Shown here: piece after piece, positions 34,128 through 43,072 of the stretch | Numbering within the stretch: position 1 is the first letter of the stretch | Layout of the letters: each line of letters starts with the position of its first letter | Assembly (NCBI GenBank): GCA_016930915.1 | Contig: JAFGFU010000008.1 | Coordinates: 1-64,000, forward strand | DNA length: 64,000 nucleotides | Reading direction: 5' to 3' | Source of the DNA: Campylobacterales bacterium | Lineage (GTDB): Bacteria; Campylobacterota; Campylobacteria; Campylobacterales; Sulfurospirillaceae | The notes under the pieces: generated by a model | The model's input: only the letters and a program-made list of their open reading frames with translations | What the model was told of the DNA's origin: nothing | Database searches by the model: none | Made by a program: the position numbers and the translations under genes

Positions 34128-35192
34128 TTATCTCCTCTCTTTGGCAAAAACGCCTAAAACGATACAAAAAATCAATCCCGCAAAAACCATAAACGGCGCA
34201 TTTGCACCAATCCCAGCAGGTGAGCTTGCGAGAGCAAAATTGTGCGCAACACCCGCACCCACTAGAAGTCCCATGATGAAAACACCCGCATCACTATCAC
34301 CTTCACCGCTCAAAACCAACTGGCGACCAGGACAACCTCCCACCAAAGTCAATGCTAAACCTGAGAGTACCATGCCTAAAAAGTTCCATAAAGCATCGTT
34401 ATGTGCAATCGGCTGTTTCTCAAATCCCGCATGAAACTGACCCAAAAGCATATTGGTGATAAATGCGAAGAGAACGAATGCGACTAAGCCTTGTAAGATG
34501 TGTGTCTCTTTTAGAAGTACCGTATCACGAACGGCTGCAATCGTACAAAAACGGCTCTTTTGAAACACAAATCCCAATAACAGCCCAACGCCTAGTGAAA
34601 TCATTAAAGGAGCGTACATTGAGCCTGGTCCTTTGGTAGAGAATTTCACCGGAGTCGCTTCGCCATACATTCCCCACAACAATAAAGCTAAAAGTATGAC
34701 ACCAAACAGAGGCATCATGTAGCCAACCAACGGATGCGCAGGGCGGTTACGTCCAAGAGAGAACCCTTTTTTGAAAAAATAAATGCCCATCAAAATACCC
34801 ACAATCAACCCCGCAAGTCCAGCCAATGCTGTCCAATCACCCGCAGAGAGACGTAAAAACATACGCCACGGACATCCTAGAAAGACTAAAGCGCCTATCA
34901 TTGCAAAAACACCTAAGAAAAAACGAGCCAAAGGCGCAGAACCCGCACGAGGCTTAAACTCTTTAAACAAAAAGGAAGAGACAAACGCCCCCAAAATAAG
35001 CCCGATAATTTCAGGACGAATGTACTGCACAATCGCCGCACTGTGAAATCCAAGCGCACCTGAAATATCTCTCAAGAAACACGCCGCACACATACCCATA
35101 TTGCCTGGGTTGCCAAACTTTGCCAATAAGGGTGCGGCAACACCAAAAATGACTCCAGCCACAATGGGCCAATACGCCAATTTTTTAACCAT
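34128..35192 (-). CDS. yedE: YedE-family putative selenium transporter
   Basis: The 354-residue membrane protein has about nine hydrophobic segments. Paired YeeE/YedE repeats contain conserved cysteines: GMCAACFLRDI, GCPWRMF, SRFCTIAAVRDT and GGCPGRQLV. YedE is the proposed selenium importer that co-occurs with SelD-type systems. It is the first gene of the four-gene unit. selD and selA are not in the window. Confidence 0.92.
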   Translation of the reverse strand: MVKKLAYWPIVAGVIFGVAAPLLAKFGNPGNMGMCAACFLRDISGALGFHSAAIVQYIRPEIIGLILGAFVSSFLFKEFKPRAGSAPLARFFLGVFAMIGALVFLGCPWRMFLRLSAGDWTALAGLAGLIVGILMGIYFFKKGFSLGRNRPAHPLVGYMMPLFGVILLALLLWGMYGEATPVKFSTKGPGSMYAPLMISLGVGLLLGFVFQKSRFCTIAAVRDTVLLKETHILQGLVAFVLFAFITNMLLGQFHAGFEKQPIAHNDALWNFLGMVLSGLALTLVGGCPGRQLVLSGEGDSDAGVFIMGLLVGAGVAHNFALASSPAGIGANAPFMVFAGLIFCIVLGVFAKERR

Positions 35193-35340: not shown

Positions 35341-35362
35341 AAGCATACCTGAGGGTATACTT
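35341..35362 (-). terminator. Terminator overlapping the MATE gene stop
   Basis: AAGCATACC, a TGAG loop and GGTATACTT form a stem with one G-T, followed leftward by TTTACATG from a palindrome copy. Confidence 0.55.
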
Positions 35363-36663
35363 TACGAAAAAGAGCGATGTTCCAGCTTTTTTGTCTCTTT
35401 AAGAAGAAAAAAACTACGCCCCAGACTAAAGAGAATAAACGCCAACCACAAACCGTGATTATCAAAGTAGGGAATAAAACTAAAATAGGCAACCATAAAA
35501 ATCAAAAGGGAGAAAACCATCGAATCTCGCACGGGTTTTGTGTACGTTGCACCCGTAAAAATACCATAGTACACCAGTCCAATCCCCACACAAAAAGGGA
35601 AAATCGCCAGCCAAAGGGTATACTCCAAACAGAGTGTTTGTATGGTTGCGATATCTGTAAAAAGTGCAATCATAGGCTTTTCAAAAAGAACAATAATCAA
35701 AGCCACTAGCACACTTAATCCAAAAACCATCACATTAGAAATCCGAAATACCTCATGGTACTGCTCTTTGTTTTTAGCTCCCACCGCACGCCCTGCAAAG
35801 ATGCTTGAAGCATTGGCAAGTCCATCAAACAGATAAGAGATAATGTACTGGATTTGAAATAAAATGGCATTCGCCGCTAAAATCTCCACCCCAAAACGAT
35901 TGCCTCGTGCAACGAACATATTGGTCATGGCTAACAAACAGACGGTGCGAATCATCAAGTCGCCATTGACACTCATAATTTTTTTAAGTTCACCTTTGTG
36001 TAACAGCTCGTCCCTAAAATAGAGAATACGTTTAAACGTGATGATTTTTGAGATAAACCAAAGCCCTAAGATAAAACCGTACCCCTGTGCAATGAGGGTT
36101 GCATACGCCACACCCGCTACCCCAAAATCCCAATAAAAAACAAACACCACATCCAAAATGATGTTGATGACATTGGTTGAAATCTGAAGCCACATCGTCT
36201 CTTTAATGCGCTTTTGCCCCATAATCCAACCCAAATTGACATAGCCAACTAAAACAAACGGCGCACCCCAAATCAAAATCTCAAAATAACTCTGTGTACT
36301 CTGCAACACCTTAGCTTCAGGTGCGTAAATGGCAAAAGCACCTTGTAAAATCGGCTGATGCAACGCAATAAAAACAATACTAATACACAGTGCAATAAAA
36401 AGCGGTCTAAAGTAGGCAAAATAGACCTGTTTTTCACTTTGAGACCCCAAAGCTTGCGCCGAAAACCCCGAGGTTCCAACCCTTAAAAATCCAAACAACC
36501 AATAGAGCGTATTCAAAATCGCCGTACCAATGGCAACACCTCCGACAAACGCAGGCTCACCCAAACGCCCAATGACCGCCGTATCCACCGCACCTAAAAG
36601 CGGTTGTGTCACCGTAGAGATGACAAAGGGAATCGCAATACTTAAATACTCTTTATAACCCAC
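35362..36663 (-). CDS. MATE-family efflux transporter
   Basis: The 433-residue protein has about twelve transmembrane segments. AVDTAVIGRLGEPAFVGGVAIG and SGFSAQALGS are typical of the DinF-like MATE branch, which exports cations or drugs using H+ or Na+. It starts only 9 bases after nikE, so it is probably the last gene of the nik operon. Whether it exports metal or a chelator is not evident. Confidence 0.9.
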   Translation of the reverse strand: MGYKEYLSIAIPFVISTVTQPLLGAVDTAVIGRLGEPAFVGGVAIGTAILNTLYWLFGFLRVGTSGFSAQALGSQSEKQVYFAYFRPLFIALCISIVFIALHQPILQGAFAIYAPEAKVLQSTQSYFEILIWGAPFVLVGYVNLGWIMGQKRIKETMWLQISTNVINIILDVVFVFYWDFGVAGVAYATLIAQGYGFILGLWFISKIITFKRILYFRDELLHKGELKKIMSVNGDLMIRTVCLLAMTNMFVARGNRFGVEILAANAILFQIQYIISYLFDGLANASSIFAGRAVGAKNKEQYHEVFRISNVMVFGLSVLVALIIVLFEKPMIALFTDIATIQTLCLEYTLWLAIFPFCVGIGLVYYGIFTGATYTKPVRDSMVFSLLIFMVAYFSFIPYFDNHGLWLAFILFSLGRSFFLLKETKKLEHRSFS

Positions 36664-36672
36664 AGAAAAACC

Positions 36673-37437
36673 TTAACAAAAATTGGGAATTTCAAGCGCT
36701 TCAACAGCCCCTAAAAGACTTTTGGAGTAGGGGTGTGAAATATGCTTTAAGTCTTCGATTTTATCGACACTTTCAACGCATTCACCCTCTTTAAAAAAGA
36801 TGACCCTATCGCACAGATAGGTCACACACATCACATCGTGCGTGATGAAAAGATAAGAGAGGTTATGTTTCTCTTTAAGCGCTTTTAAAAGCTCCAAAAT
36901 CTGCAACTGCACCGAAACATCCAGTGAACTCACCGCTTCATCCAGCAAAATAAACTTAGGCTTTGTCGCAATCGCTCGTGCAATGCAGACCCTTTGAAGC
37001 TGACCACCACTGAGTTCATGCGCATAACGCTCCAAAAAAGTCTCATTCAGCCCCACTTCTTCAAGGAGTGAGAGGATGTAAGCACGTTTTTCTTTGGCAC
37101 ATGCGATGCTTTTTCCAAGTGCTTCTGCGATGACCTCTTTGATGCGAAAGCGAGGATTGATGGAGCTGGTGTAGTCTTGAAAAACCACACTCATCTCTTT
37201 TTCATACGCTCTTTTGTCGCTTTTTCCCTCAAAAGAGATGGTGCCCTCATCGGCTTTTTCAATCCCTAAAATAATCTTGCCTAGCGTACTTTTGCCACTG
37301 CCAGACTCACCAATGAGTCCAACGCATTCGCCCCTTTTTACATGTAAAGAGACCCCTTTTAAAACCGCTTTATGCCTCTTTTTAAAAAGACCTTGCGATT
37401 CATGGTACCCTTTTACAATGCCCTTTGCTTCTAACAT
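36673..37437 (-). CDS. nikE: Nickel/peptide ABC transporter ATPase (NikE/OppF type)
   Basis: The 254-residue ATPase has Walker [13 protein letters not shown], signature LSGGQLQRVCIARA and Walker B FILLDEAVSSLD. The ATG at 37437 has AAGGAG 5 bases upstream; an in-frame upstream ATG at 37455 is rejected. It overlaps nikD by 7 bases. It pairs with nikD to drive the NikBC permease. Confidence 0.9.
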   Translation of the reverse strand: MLEAKGIVKGYHESQGLFKKRHKAVLKGVSLHVKRGECVGLIGESGSGKSTLGKIILGIEKADEGTISFEGKSDKRAYEKEMSVVFQDYTSSINPRFRIKEVIAEALGKSIACAKEKRAYILSLLEEVGLNETFLERYAHELSGGQLQRVCIARAIATKPKFILLDEAVSSLDVSVQLQILELLKALKEKHNLSYLFITHDVMCVTYLCDRVIFFKEGECVESVDKIEDLKHISHPYSKSLLGAVEALEIPNFC

Positions 37438-38249
37438 GAGCACTCCTTCACACATCTTTGAAACGCCTCAATGAGCTTCAAACGTGTGGAGATAAGCTCT
37501 TTGGTCGGTGCTTCTTTGGGAGAAAAGATAATCTCCTGCGCACGCCCGCTCTCGACAATTTTTCCTTGATGCATCACCATCATGGTATCGGATATCTGAC
37601 TTAAAATACTCAAATCATGCGAGATAAAAAGCATACTCGTCTGATAGAGTTCTCGCACTTTTTTCAGCTCACGAATCACCTCGACTTGATTAACCACATC
37701 TATCGCCGTGGTTGGCTCATCGGCAATAATCACCGAGGGATTTAAGGCAATGCAAAGCGCTATCATCATGCGTTGCAACATGCCACCACTGAGCTGATGC
37801 GGATACTTCTTCAAAATCGCTTCACCCTCATGCAAATTCATCTTTTCAAACGCCTCTAAAATAAGTCTCAAAAGTTCTTTTTTATTCTTTACATGTAAAT
37901 GCGTTTGCAAGGTTTCTAAGAGTTGATTTTCCATGCTAAAAAGGGGATTAAACGCTGTCATGGGATTTTGAATGACCATGCATATCTCTTTACCCCGAAT
38001 CAAGCTCTTCTCTTTTTCGAACATGGTTAAAATATTTTTGCCATGAAACAGCACTTCGCCCTCTAGGTGAAAGTTGGCATCCAGCAATCCCATAACTGCT
38101 TTACATGTAAGACTTTTTCCACTGCCAGACTCCCCTAAAATGCCTAAACAATGATTTTTTTCTAGGTTAAAAGTAACATCGCTCACCAAAGGGTGTAAGC
38201 CCTTTTTCGTGCGCACACTCACACACAGGTTTTTTACTTCGAGTATCAT
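37431..38249 (-). CDS. nikD: Nickel/peptide ABC transporter ATPase (NikD/OppD type)
   Basis: The 272-residue ATPase has Walker A GESGSGKSLTCK, signature LSGGMLQRMMIALC and Walker B VIIADEPTTAID. Two palindrome copies lie within it: one at 38102 gives SLTCK right after the Walker A Lys-Ser, and one at 37889 encodes HLHVKNKK. It overlaps nikC by 4 bases (ATGA). Confidence 0.9.
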   Translation of the reverse strand: MILEVKNLCVSVRTKKGLHPLVSDVTFNLEKNHCLGILGESGSGKSLTCKAVMGLLDANFHLEGEVLFHGKNILTMFEKEKSLIRGKEICMVIQNPMTAFNPLFSMENQLLETLQTHLHVKNKKELLRLILEAFEKMNLHEGEAILKKYPHQLSGGMLQRMMIALCIALNPSVIIADEPTTAIDVVNQVEVIRELKKVRELYQTSMLFISHDLSILSQISDTMMVMHQGKIVESGRAQEIIFSPKEAPTKELISTRLKLIEAFQRCVKECSC

Positions 38250-39067
38250 TTGACAACTCCTTTTACATCAAGCATATCACGCAGTGCATCGCCTAAAATA
38301 TTAAAACTAGCCACCACAACCAAAATGGCAACCCCAGGGGCCATCATTTGAGAAGGATTGGACATGAGCACATTTTTGGCTTCACTGAGCATCGCACCCC
38401 ATTCAGGAAAAGGAGGCTGAATGCCCAGTCCTAAAAACGAAAGGGTTGAGATGTTAATGATAACCCAACCCATATCAAGTGTGGCTAAAATAATAATCTC
38501 TGAGAAGATATTGGGCAATAGATGGCGTGAGATAATAAACCTATCGCTCTTGCCAATCGTCTTAGCATAAAGCACATAATTTTTATAGTTGTAGCCTGCC
38601 ACCATGCCTCGTATCATCCTCGCGTACCACGTCCACTTAATGACAATGTTCGCTAAAATGATATTTTCAATGCCCACACCCAAAACACCCACAATCGCCA
38701 AAATCATCACTTGACTGGGAAAGGAGAGCATCACATCGCAAAACCGCATCATCATCTCATCGACCACACCCTTGTAATAGCCCGAAATCACCCCTACCAC
38801 AACGCCAATGCCAATGGTACACACCATCGTGAGCATTGCTAAAAAGACCGTATTGCGAATGCCAAAAATAAGACGTGAGTAGATACAACGCCCTAAATGG
38901 TCGGTTCCTAGAGGATACTCCCATGACATCCCCGCAAATTTAAACGCAATGTTCTGTTCCAAAGGGTCATGCAAACTAAAAAAAGGAGCAAAAAGTCCCA
39001 TAATCATCACTGTCACCAAAATCGACAGCGCTAAAATCGCTAATTTATCACTCAACAGTCGCTTCAT
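38246..39067 (-). CDS. nikC: Nickel/peptide ABC transporter permease NikC
   Basis: The 273-residue inner-membrane permease has about six segments. PLGTDHLGRCIYSRLIFG and the EAA-like loop (YVLYAKTIGKSDRFIISRHLLPN) are typical of the OppC/NikC family. It sits between nikB (3-base gap) and nikD (overlap). Confidence 0.92.
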   Translation of the reverse strand: MKRLLSDKLAILALSILVTVMIMGLFAPFFSLHDPLEQNIAFKFAGMSWEYPLGTDHLGRCIYSRLIFGIRNTVFLAMLTMVCTIGIGVVVGVISGYYKGVVDEMMMRFCDVMLSFPSQVMILAIVGVLGVGIENIILANIVIKWTWYARMIRGMVAGYNYKNYVLYAKTIGKSDRFIISRHLLPNIFSEIIILATLDMGWVIINISTLSFLGLGIQPPFPEWGAMLSEAKNVLMSNPSQMMAPGVAILVVVASFNILGDALRDMLDVKGVVK

Positions 39068-39070
39068 TCC

Positions 39071-40006
39071 TTACATGCTCCGTCTCTGTTTGGGGTCTAA
39101 ATAGGTCTGAATAATGTCAATAAAGAGATTGCAAAAGACAAACAAAAGTCCCATCATTAAAATGTAGGCTTGAATAATCGGATAATCTCGGTTAAAAATC
39201 GCGCTAATACACAACCTTCCAATACCTGGAATCGCAAAAATATTTTCAATGACAAAGGTTCCTGCAATCAGTTGTACAAAACTCATCCCAAGCGCGTTCA
39301 TGGTCGATTGCAAAGAGTTGGTAAAAAGATGTTTCAACACAATGACCACCTCACTAATGCCTCGAACTCTCGCATAAAAGAGGTAATTCTCTTGCATATT
39401 TTCAAGCATGGAGTTACGAATAAGACGAATGTACGTTGAAACATAGGTCATGGAAAGTGTGATGGCTGGTAAGATATAGTGCACAAAACTGGTCGCTCCA
39501 CTGGTGGGTAAGAGGTTAAAATGAATGGCAAAAAACCACATCAAAATCAACCCTAACCAGTAGTTAGGAATAGCGGTAAATAAAAACATAAAAACCCTTG
39601 CTACTTTGTCTGTGATGGAGTCTTTAAAGACCGCACTTAAAATGCCAATAGGAAAACTCACCACAATGACAAGGATAAAGGAAAAGAGAGCCAGTTTCAA
39701 CGTAGCAGGCAGACTTCTTAGAATCTCATCAAACACCAAACGGTTATGGTTGATGTAAGAGCTTCCAAAATCCAAACGCAAACAGTCATACAGCCAATTC
39801 ACATAACGCACTAAAAAAGGATCATTCAAGCCTAAACTCTCTCGCATCGAAGCCACCGCTTCATGGGTGGGAATAATTTCATTGACACGCAGTGCCACTT
39901 CCGCAGGATCAGAGGGAATAAAACTGATAATAACAAAGGCGATAAACGAGATGGCTAGCATCATGGGAAGGGTGAACAACAGGCGCTTTAATACATAATT
40001 TCTCAT
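39071..40006 (-). CDS. nikB: Nickel/peptide ABC transporter permease NikB
   Basis: The 311-residue OppB/NikB permease has about six membrane segments. The N-terminal MRNYVLKRLLFTLPMML, the SLGLNDPFLVRY block and EAA loop (YLFYARVRGISEVVIVLKHL) are visible. It is separated from nikA by a hairpin with a T-run, which may lower its expression relative to nikA. Confidence 0.92.
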   Translation of the reverse strand: MRNYVLKRLLFTLPMMLAISFIAFVIISFIPSDPAEVALRVNEIIPTHEAVASMRESLGLNDPFLVRYVNWLYDCLRLDFGSSYINHNRLVFDEILRSLPATLKLALFSFILVIVVSFPIGILSAVFKDSITDKVARVFMFLFTAIPNYWLGLILMWFFAIHFNLLPTSGATSFVHYILPAITLSMTYVSTYIRLIRNSMLENMQENYLFYARVRGISEVVIVLKHLFTNSLQSTMNALGMSFVQLIAGTFVIENIFAIPGIGRLCISAIFNRDYPIIQAYILMMGLLFVFCNLFIDIIQTYLDPKQRRSM

Positions 40007-40067: not shown

Positions 40068-41687
40068 TTATTTAACACGCATTCTCTCAAAAGGGACTTC
40101 ATATTTGGAGACATCAAAACCTACATTTTCAAGTTTTTGGTTGAAAATCGCACGGTTTCGCTCATACGTCAATGGCAAATAGACCGCTTCATCATGCAAA
40201 CGTGTTAAAACAAAACGGTAATGTTCTTGACGTTTGGTCTCATCGGTACTCTCAAGCGCATGCAAAATGCTCTCATCAATTAAGGCTTTATCATGAAGTC
40301 CTTGTTGTGCCAAATAATCCCCATACACCACTTTTCGCATCCCCGCTAAAAAGGATTGTGGATCATAAGGCATACCCCATGAGATGTTAAAGACCATCTG
40401 AAACGTTCCCGCTTTCATACGGTCACGGTTGGCTTGTTCTTCTTCACCAACGATATTTAGGTTCATCCCAATTTTCGCAAACTCACCTTGTAAAAACTCC
40501 GCAATCGTTTTATCGGTGACATTGTTACTGTTGTAATTAAGCGTAATGGCAAGTTCACGCCCCTCTTTTTGACGGTATTTTTTGCCTTCAACTTTCATCC
40601 AACCTGAGGCTTCCAAAAGGGATTCTGCTTTGGCTTTATCAAACGCATAAGGGGTTAAGCCAATGTTCGCATAAGGGGTGTTTTTGGAGAGCAATAATTC
40701 TGCTGGGCTCTCAATGCCCGCAAAAATCGCTTTAGAAATCGTCTCTTTATCGGTTGCATGCTGAATTGCTTGACGCACGTTGATGTCACCCGTAATAGCA
40801 TCAGTGGTGTTAAGCAAAATCATACGGGTGGAAAGAGGCTCAGACATAGCGCCACGAAAACCTTTGAGGTTTGCAAATTTGTTGTAAGAAGCTGAATCAA
40901 CCATATTGACCCCAAAAATAAGGTCAATCTCACCTTTTTCAAGTGCCATCAAACGGGTTTGATTGTCAGGAATAACTTTCACCACCACTTTTTGAAGCTC
41001 TGGCTTTTTACCCCAATAATTTGGATTGACTTCAAACACCGCATACTCATCTTTATGATTCTCTTTTAACACATAACGACCCGTTCCACTGAGCGCACTT
41101 ACCCCATCTTTAGTGGTACCGTTAATAAACGCTTTGGGAGAGATAAAACGAAACGGACGAATCACCCCAAGTTCTACCAAAAGTGGGTAATACGGAGCGT
41201 CAAGTTTTAGGGTAAGTTCATACTCACCACTGGCTTGTACCGCTTCGCCACCTTTTTGATTAATAGCGTCCATCAAACGTACAGACTCTAACCATCCGTG
41301 GCGCTTAATGTTGCTCAAAATGGCATCAAAGTTGGCTTTAGCTGCTTTAGCGTTAAATTTCTCGCCATCAGAAAATGAGACATCTTCACGCAATTTAAAC
41401 ACATAGGTTTTCCCATCTTCTGAAATCTTCCACTCCGTCGCTAACCACGGCTCAATTTTACCGTCATTGGCAATGTGTACCAACGATTCAAACAACATAT
41501 TTTGAGCGTACAATTCACCGCTGTATAAATGCGGATTCAAATCCCTGATATCTCTAAAATTGGCAAACGTAACCACCTGTTCACTCTTTTTGGACGCTTC
41601 TGCTTTTGGCTCTTCTTTGGATGAAGAGAAGTAAAAGCCCACACCAATAACCACTAACGCTAAAATCGCTAAACCGATTTTTTTCAT
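40068..41687 (-). CDS. nikA: Nickel ABC transporter substrate-binding protein (NikA-like)
   Basis: The 539-residue protein closely tracks E. coli NikA through most of its length, with blocks such as DLNPHLYSGEL, RHGWLESVRLM, PFRFISPKAF, YANIGLTPY, TRLHDEAVYLPLTY and WGMPYDPQSF. It begins with a hydrophobic anchor (KKIGLAILALVVIGVG) without a lipobox Cys, so it may stay membrane-tethered by that helix. The start is ATG 41687; an in-frame ATG at 41723 is less likely. It is divergent from a porin with a shared upstream motif. Nickel is the likely substrate but peptide or metallophore cannot be excluded. Confidence 0.88.
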   Translation of the reverse strand: MKKIGLAILALVVIGVGFYFSSSKEEPKAEASKKSEQVVTFANFRDIRDLNPHLYSGELYAQNMLFESLVHIANDGKIEPWLATEWKISEDGKTYVFKLREDVSFSDGEKFNAKAAKANFDAILSNIKRHGWLESVRLMDAINQKGGEAVQASGEYELTLKLDAPYYPLLVELGVIRPFRFISPKAFINGTTKDGVSALSGTGRYVLKENHKDEYAVFEVNPNYWGKKPELQKVVVKVIPDNQTRLMALEKGEIDLIFGVNMVDSASYNKFANLKGFRGAMSEPLSTRMILLNTTDAITGDINVRQAIQHATDKETISKAIFAGIESPAELLLSKNTPYANIGLTPYAFDKAKAESLLEASGWMKVEGKKYRQKEGRELAITLNYNSNNVTDKTIAEFLQGEFAKIGMNLNIVGEEEQANRDRMKAGTFQMVFNISWGMPYDPQSFLAGMRKVVYGDYLAQQGLHDKALIDESILHALESTDETKRQEHYRFVLTRLHDEAVYLPLTYERNRAIFNQKLENVGFDVSKYEVPFERMRVK

Positions 41688-41713
41688 ACAAACCCTTTCG
41701 TCAAAACTATTTT

Positions 41714-41733
41714 TTGATAACAAAAATCAAATA
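41714..41733 (-). promoter_or_regulatory. Shared motif upstream of nikA
   Basis: Read leftward, the sequence is TATTTGATTTTT, then G, then TTATCAA. It ends 26 bases before the nikA ATG. The same element with one base changed occurs in the opposite direction at 41828. Confidence 0.6.
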
Positions 41734-41827
41734 GCATCCTAACATAAAAACGATTATCAAGTCAAACGTAATATTTATATTAAATAAAAAAATAAAATCC
41801 AAGGAAATTTAAGCTCTCCGAATGTAT

Positions 41828-41847
41828 TATTTGATTTTTATTATCAA
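41828..41847 (+). promoter_or_regulatory. Shared motif upstream of the porin
   Basis: TATTTGATTTTT, then A, then TTATCAA ends 16 bases before the porin ATG. It matches the nikA element at 19 of 20 positions and faces its own gene, so both genes carry it in the same orientation relative to their starts. It could be a metal-regulator operator. Confidence 0.6.
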
Positions 41848-41863
41848 TATTTTAGGAGAATAT

Positions 41864-43072
41864 ATGAAATTTTCACGTTTAAGTTTAGTAGCATTGGCGG
41901 CACTTGCTACGCTTTCAAGCAACGCTTTTGCGGCAGACAATCTTGCAGATGCGTTCAAAAATGGTAAGCTCACAGGGGAGATTCGCACCTATTATTTTAG
42001 CAGAGATAAAACAGGAGACGCTCAAGGTCATCAAGATATTTTTGCCTCAGGTTTAATGCTCAACTACGTCACCGATAGCTTTATGGGATTTAGAGCAGGG
42101 GCTACTTTCCAATCAAGCGCAACCCCATTTGTGGATGATGATGGTAAAGCGATGTTTACACGTGATATGTGGGCGCAAGGAGCACAACTCTCTGAGGCGT
42201 ATCTTGCATACACGTTAGGTAAAACCGATGTCAAAGTAGGGCGTATGTATATGGGAACACCACTGATTGCAGGGAGTGGTTCACGCCTCATTAAAGAGTC
42301 ATTTGAAGGTGCGCTTATTACCAACAAAGATATTCCTAACACCACGTTAGGTGCTGTGTATGCAGATAAATTTCAAGCACGCACCAACAAAGAGGGCGAT
42401 ATTGGCGAATTTGAAGATTATTACGATGGGATGTACTCTTTGTACGCCATTAACAAATCTATTGCAGGACTAACCCTCACGGGTGCATGGGCTTATATCA
42501 ATGATGATAACACACTAGGCTCCAACCTCAATATTTATAACCTCGAAGCTATCTATGCCAATAAAATAGGTGCGTTTGGTTATAACCTAGGCGCTCAGTA
42601 CTGGCTCAATGATTACAGCTCTGTGAGTACAGGTGAAGATGACTCTATCTATGGCTATGGTCTAAAAGCAGGAGCGAGTTATGCAAACCTTAGTGGATAT
42701 CTCGCTTACTCTCAAATCTCTGATGATGACAACACCCCAATGGGTCAATTACTCCACGGTGCAGGCAATGGTACAGATCTTATTTATACGGCTTCTATCA
42801 TCGGTTCATACAGCTACTATGCTGATATGAAAGCCTATGCAGCGGGTTTAGATTATAAAATCAATCCTTCCACAAATGTTGGTACCGTTTATGTTGCAAC
42901 CACTAATGATGCCAATTTCGCAGCCGATGCCGATGTCTCTTACACAGGTTTTTATGCCTCTTATAGCTTTAGTGGAGCATTAAAGGGCTTAAGTGTTATG
43001 GCACAATACGAAACCATTGGTAAAGATGCCGATGGTGATCAATTCCGTTTTAAAGGCTCTTATAAATTCTAA
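41864..43072 (+). CDS. OprD-like outer-membrane porin
   Basis: The 402-residue protein has a signal peptide (KFSRLSLVALAALATLSSNAFA, cleaved before ADNL) and a beta-barrel pattern of alternating aromatic residues ending in Phe (GSYKF). The start at 41864 has AGGAGAA just upstream; an in-frame earlier ATG gives a poor signal. Campylobacterota OprD-family barrels look like this. Being divergent from nikA with a shared motif, it may be the matching outer-membrane route for nickel or its chelate. Confidence 0.88.
   Translation: MKFSRLSLVALAALATLSSNAFAADNLADAFKNGKLTGEIRTYYFSRDKTGDAQGHQDIFASGLMLNYVTDSFMGFRAGATFQSSATPFVDDDGKAMFTRDMWAQGAQLSEAYLAYTLGKTDVKVGRMYMGTPLIAGSGSRLIKESFEGALITNKDIPNTTLGAVYADKFQARTNKEGDIGEFEDYYDGMYSLYAINKSIAGLTLTGAWAYINDDNTLGSNLNIYNLEAIYANKIGAFGYNLGAQYWLNDYSSVSTGEDDSIYGYGLKAGASYANLSGYLAYSQISDDDNTPMGQLLHGAGNGTDLIYTASIIGSYSYYADMKAYAAGLDYKINPSTNVGTVYVATTNDANFAADADVSYTGFYASYSFSGALKGLSVMAQYETIGKDADGDQFRFKGSYKF

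Follow-up and report, generated by a model that had tools for sequence, protein, structure and literature searches.

Predicted Fur boxes before a porin and a Nik-type importer in a Campylobacterales bacterium

The outer-membrane route of Nik-type substrates has been described as "an unknown porin" (PMC11091072). In a member of the Sulfurospirillaceae, probably Sulfurospirillum-like, an OprD-type porin gene stands back to back with a nikABCDE operon inside the window, the 64,000-nucleotide stretch of DNA analysed here. The arrangement raises the question of whether both units answer to one metal regulator and which substrate they serve. A sequence-only reading had proposed a metal regulator for both and nickel as the substrate. 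The genes concerned are the following.

35362-36663, minus strand: MATE-family (DinF-like) exporter (Pfam MatE), conserved in position
36673-37455, minus strand: NikE-like ATPase (TIGR02769 259.9, below the equivalog cut-off of 332.55)
37431-38249, minus strand: NikD-like ATPase (TIGR02770 290.7, below the equivalog cut-off of 318.7)
38246-39067, minus strand: NikC permease (TIGR02790 381.1, over the cut-off of 358.45)
39071-40006, minus strand: NikB permease (TIGR02789 458.8, over the cut-off of 447)
40068-41687, minus strand: NikA-family solute-binding lipoprotein, 539 aa (TIGR02294 598.7, over the nickel equivalog cut-off of 393), with Tyr455 (codon 40323-40325) at the E. coli His416 position
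41864-43072, plus strand: OprD/Occ-type outer-membrane porin, 402 aa (Pfam OprD 42.7 bits, over the cut-off of 25)

Although NikD and NikE miss their equivalog cut-offs, gene order and homology fit NikABCDE. A YedE-type putative selenium transporter (34128-35192) adjoins the MATE gene, likewise in the congeneric genomes G013 and G014, and the methyltransferase gene adjoining the porin is missing at the same place in G014.

A repeated dyad between nikA and the porin gene

The divergent region between the two units (41688-41863) is AT-rich, measures 176 bp and holds the following elements.

41714-41733, minus strand: nikA-side element TATTTGATTTTTGTTATCAA, 26 nt before the nikA ATG at 41687
41714-41730: nikA-side dyad core, TTGATAACAAAAATCAA as read on the plus strand, a predicted Fur box over the nikA transcription start
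41736-41765, minus strand: predicted nikA promoter, TTGACT (41765-41760), 18 nt, TAGGAT (41741-41736), with TG before the -10; a consensus match only, 9/12
41744-41760, strand unassigned: weaker Fur-like site ATAAAAACGATTATCAA, a half-matching third copy between the nikA -35 and -10 (10.3 on the matrix described below)
41825-41830, plus strand: candidate porin -10, TATTAT, read from the sequence, with no clear -35
41828-41847, plus strand: porin-side element TATTTGATTTTTATTATCAA, 16 nt before the porin ATG at 41864
41831-41847: porin-side dyad core, a predicted Fur box over the porin -10/start region

The repeated element, TATTTGATTTTTRTTATCAA, has two exact copies in the 2.23-Mb genome, both in this gap and facing opposite genes, each its own. 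The sequence-only reading had described these 20 bases with precisely this spacing and orientation, and both are exact. Its further statement that nothing else in the 176 bp is duplicated was nearly right, except for the weaker third copy, which scores 10.3-12.1 in relatives. At up to three mismatches the window contains only the two copies (0.09 expected; two copies in 0/100 shuffles). The genome-wide search proposed for the motif returned no further exact copy and just two more places at three mismatches, while a backwards-pattern control gave one per strand.

The core of each element is a perfect 17-bp dyad, TTGAT-N7-ATCAA. Comparison of orthologous nik-porin intergenes, also proposed at the outset, found the dyads conserved: in a gapped alignment of four congeneric genomes (this one, G013, G014 and G027), the dyad columns are invariant (34/34), as against 103/136 of the other columns. 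Both dyads are intact in the gaps of G014 and G027. Read without gaps, G013 keeps the nikA-side dyad intact and has the last base of the porin-side dyad changed.

The geometry of the dyads is that of a 7-1-7 Fur box (TTGATAATNATTATCAA), from whose consensus they differ by 2 and 3 mismatches. The family's own feoA promoters provide an independent standard. Most of 30 upstream regions of feoA contain a box at no more than three mismatches to the consensus, which as a rule lies some 29 nt ahead of the start and is typically of the form TTGATGAGCATTATCAA, with the same TTGAT-N7-ATCAA geometry as the nik and porin dyads. A symmetric scoring matrix was built from 13 feoA sites, leaving out all nik and porin sites, and applied to every 17-mer of the 64-kb window. 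The top two 17-mers are the porin-side dyad (15.97) and the nikA-side dyad (14.15). In 3000 first-order simulated versions of the 176-bp region, the higher of these scores turned up in 0.07% and the pair of scores never. Since chance alone would place about 5 and 16 sites as good as the two dyads, taken singly, in a sequence of genome size, the argument rests on the presence of both at promoters within one 176-bp gap. An AT-rich region could produce a chance repeat that no regulator reads, but the shuffles, the independent feoA matrix and the conservation of the dyads strongly disfavour this explanation and make it highly improbable.

The Fur-box consensus also precedes feoAB (C32), a second feoAB, a DUF4198-like gene and an OprD-like porin gene (all three on C14) and a NicO-like gene (C23), gene names here being partly read from sequence. 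The box of that further porin gene (L109, 7277-8438), TCGATATTAGTTATCAA, scores 16.3 on the matrix and lies just after a Dps-like gene; the NicO-like permease gene and a DUF1007-like gene (L108, 576-1968) are preceded by two Fur-type boxes that lie 52 bp apart. The names of these genes were likewise read from sequence.

Fur, NikR and the second nik operon

The regulator of the porin and nikABCDE is most likely Fur, rather than NikR, and the match at both promoters makes Fur control of the two units a well-supported prediction. The original proposal of joint control by a metal regulator is supported, given the conserved dyads and their Fur-type match. Four Fur-family proteins are encoded in the genome, the best-scoring of which adjoins lysS-glyA, and a paralogue could be the protein that reads the dyads. 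PerR was considered as a reader: PerR-type promoters (ahpC/ferredoxin, perR, ccp) score 6 or less on the feoA matrix, which speaks against PerR but not against another paralogue.

The position of the dyads suggests the direction of control. The nikA-side dyad starts a few bases downstream of the predicted -10 and covers the expected start, while the candidate porin -10 directly abuts the porin-side dyad. Fur-repressed genes usually have operators that cover the RNA polymerase site (PMC3788343), and repression of both units by iron-loaded Fur, relieved by iron shortage, would be expected from this overlap. With plentiful iron, Fe-bound Fur would occupy both dyads and switch off the porin gene and the nikABCDE-MATE operon together; with scarce iron, both would be made.

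NikR is encoded in the genome's hyp cluster. It is also present in 24/24 same-genus genomes, with or without a window-type nik operon, and so is not tied to that operon. The NikR operator consensus is TRWYA-N15-TRWYA, with TRTTA-N15-TAWTA as the H. pylori form (PMC5385501). The consensus was not found in the nik-porin intergenes of this genome, G014 or G027, and the three overlapping matches in the G013 intergene are chance-like. Half-site spacing differs as well, at 12 bp in the dyad against 20 bp in the NikR operator. An outer palindrome resembling that of E. coli NikR, CTATTT-N16-AAATAG, was seen by eye in this genome only and was set aside, as it is not kept in the aligned relatives.

A clear NikR-type site lies before another nik operon of the same genome.

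L043, 6525-10432 (C23): second nik operon, nikA2-nikB2-nikC2-GNAT

The nikA2 promoter carries TAACACTAAATAATTATTAGTAATA, a NikR-type operator (TAACA-N15-TAATA) that is kept in six genomes, fits the general consensus and nearly fits the H. pylori form; on the feoA matrix this promoter scores 4.9. NikA2 is about 45% alike to the window NikA and keeps the nickel-ligand histidine. No nikD or nikE adjoins the second operon in this genome, G014 or G031, and the G013 version lacks nikE and has a D-like ATPase only; the operon is complete in G035 and G196. This shortage of neighbouring nikDE genes suggests that the window NikDE may be common to both Nik permeases and power them both. If it is, the window operon would matter for nickel indirectly, even with a binding protein that carries something else.

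In Arcobacter-type genomes (family f9; L114, L119), inverted repeats of ACATAAGA...TCTTATA precede nikA2, unlike the NikR-type site of the window's family. These genomes are absent from the list of NikR-bearing genomes.

Porin linkage, the NikA clade and the substrate

The link between the porin and the nik genes extends beyond the genus. In a genome of another family (G196, family f9), porin, nikA, B, C, D, E and MATE genes follow one another on a single strand, and a Fur-type box (14.24 on the feoA matrix) lies 66 bp before the porin gene. The same partners and box type, found in both a divergent and a same-strand layout, point to a shared function of porin and nik genes. A palindrome before the G196 porin gene (ATTCTATTTATTAGAAT) was rejected as a counterpart, scoring -7.8 on the feoA matrix with a motif that differs from the dyad. 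Counting against a shared function, the Kmv14 relative has a different gene, and neither porin nor box, upstream of nikA, although its contig is short.

The two dyads might still be Fur boxes that reflect mere iron-economy cross-talk, with the porin and nik genes as neighbours that share no substrate. Porin paralogues are numerous and general, and location alone can make divergent neighbours share an operator. Against this, each promoter has a separate operator of its own, and the same-strand porin-nik operon occurs in another family, which together render the cross-talk account quite doubtful. The proposal that the OprD-type porin is the outer-membrane route for the Nik substrate is supported as far as the porin-Nik link goes, through the conserved dyads and the single operon of G196; its nickel half is not.

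The case against nickel involves the binding protein itself. In a tree of 35 NikA proteins, the window NikA and five others form one monophyletic clade (support 100/100), to which the G196 NikA, 65% identical to that of the window, belongs. At the E. coli His416 position, all 6 of these proteins have tyrosine, and the other 29 rows (29/29) have histidine. Arg97, Trp100, Arg137 and Trp398 are invariant across all 35, and Tyr402 is kept in all rows but two, both from one genome. His416 is the protein ligand of nickel in NikA complexes and occupies the axial metal site in Ni-AMA, whereas Fe-EDTA binds NikA without engaging it (PMC11091072). An AlphaFold model of NikA (pTM 0.51) was too weak to place the tyrosine and was left out of the argument.

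Taken together, the presence of NikR throughout the genus, the NikR-type site on nikA2 and the change of His416 to tyrosine point away from Ni-(His)2 and towards another chelate, without proving iron. A ferric chelate would be the more likely substrate of the two. Nickel as the substrate is thus the part of the sequence-only reading that lost its support: the shared element is Fur-type, the NikR-type operator belongs to the second nik operon, and the window NikA lacks the nickel-ligating histidine.

A nickel-uptake unit, with the porin as the outer-membrane route for nickel chelates and with NikR or a Fur-family protein that senses nickel in control, is nevertheless a real, if minority, possibility. 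NikA, NikB and NikC exceed the NCBIfam nickel cut-offs, the hyp cluster includes a gene for NikR, and in H. pylori NikR has two outer-membrane proteins, HopV and HopW, under its control (PMC5385501). The G196 operon comes after hyp genes: hypD, hypE and hypA (L129, 1-7344) lie upstream, separated from it by a response regulator and a sensor-like gene. These hydrogenase-maturation genes are the only neighbourhood pointer that hints at nickel. On the other side, no NikR match is listed for G196, assuming that it was in that sample as in two earlier ones. The 12-bp spacing of the dyads, the operator search in the intergenes, the NikR-type site on nikA2, the loss of His416 and the presence of NikR in all genus genomes regardless of a window-type operon weigh against such a unit.

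The exporter bears on a further alternative. The MATE gene is last in the nik operon in this genome, G013, G014 and G196, four genomes from two families, so export probably belongs to the function. A broad metallophore system resembling Cnt and staphylopine, whose chelator is made elsewhere, exported by MATE and re-imported with several metals, with Fur as one repressor, would combine a NikA-family importer and an exporter in just this way. CntA-family importers are Fur- and Zur-repressed (PMC7594338), and the CntA exception model NF047575 matches the window NikA at 507 bits, though below its cut-off of 800. Of the genes examined around the operon in the window, none resembled a nicotianamine synthase or an opine dehydrogenase, which counts against this system; we regard it as unlikely.

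Together, the Fur-type switch and the lost nickel-gripping histidine suggest that the pair probably imports a metal chelate, perhaps of iron, rather than nickel. The explanation we favour, and consider probable, is a Fur-repressed unit made up of the porin, the Nik-type ABC importer and the MATE exporter and handling a metal chelate, which is more likely to be ferric than to be Ni-(His)2. The OprD/Occ-type porin would pass a small, probably anionic metal chelate across the outer membrane. The NikA-type protein would catch it through its arginine/tryptophan pocket and the tyrosine that replaces the nickel-ligating histidine, and NikBCDE would import it. The MATE protein may export a related compound, possibly the chelator. 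A bolder version is a TonB-independent iron loop, in which MATE would export a citrate-like carboxylate chelator, the Occ-type porin admit the ferric chelate by diffusion, and the tyrosine-bearing NikA and a repurposed Nik importer take it up under two Fur operators. Such a loop is decidedly speculative and improbable in its full form; if true, the Nik family would have switched from nickel to iron through a histidine-to-tyrosine change at the metal ligand. More generally, genes annotated as a "nickel transporter" can belong to a clade whose metal ligand has changed and whose control is of the iron type, a point that bears on predictions of metal use in Campylobacterota.

Comparison with known systems

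The window porin resembles the OprD/Occ porins in its Pfam OprD match and its predicted fold, an 18-strand-like barrel (mean pLDDT only 73). Its model matches the structures of OccK3/OpdO, OccAB2 and OprD (E about 1e-17 to 1e-18), at merely 14-18% identity; on NCBIfam opr_proin_2 it scores 63, below the cut-off of 150. The substrates known for Occ porins are organic carboxylates and small molecules like them; we know of no metal chelate among these. Linked with the Nik genes through shared operators here and through a common operon elsewhere, this porin is a directly testable candidate for the outer-membrane route.

E. coli NikABCDE belongs to the same transporter family, and the window NikA aligns with its binding protein over the full length, including the Arg97/Arg137/Trp100/Trp398/Tyr402 pocket. 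The window system differs from E. coli NikABCDE-NikR in its tyrosine at position 416, in NikD and NikE that fall below the equivalog cut-offs, in a Fur-type rather than NikR-type operator and in the linked porin.

The S. aureus Cnt system, which handles staphylopine, likewise joins a NikA/Opp-type ABC importer to an exporter and is repressed by Fur, through two Fur boxes, and by Zur (PMC7594338). Unlike Cnt, the window system has an outer-membrane porin, a MATE protein in place of the Cnt exporter and a tyrosine at the His416 position, and no chelator-synthesis genes lie alongside. HopV and HopW of H. pylori are also Campylobacterota outer-membrane proteins co-regulated with metal uptake, although there the operator is that of NikR, the barrels are of the Hop family and the metal is nickel. 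By analogy, S. aureus Cnt would be the best functional parallel to the window system, and HopV and HopW the best parallel to its putatively metal-regulated outer-membrane protein.
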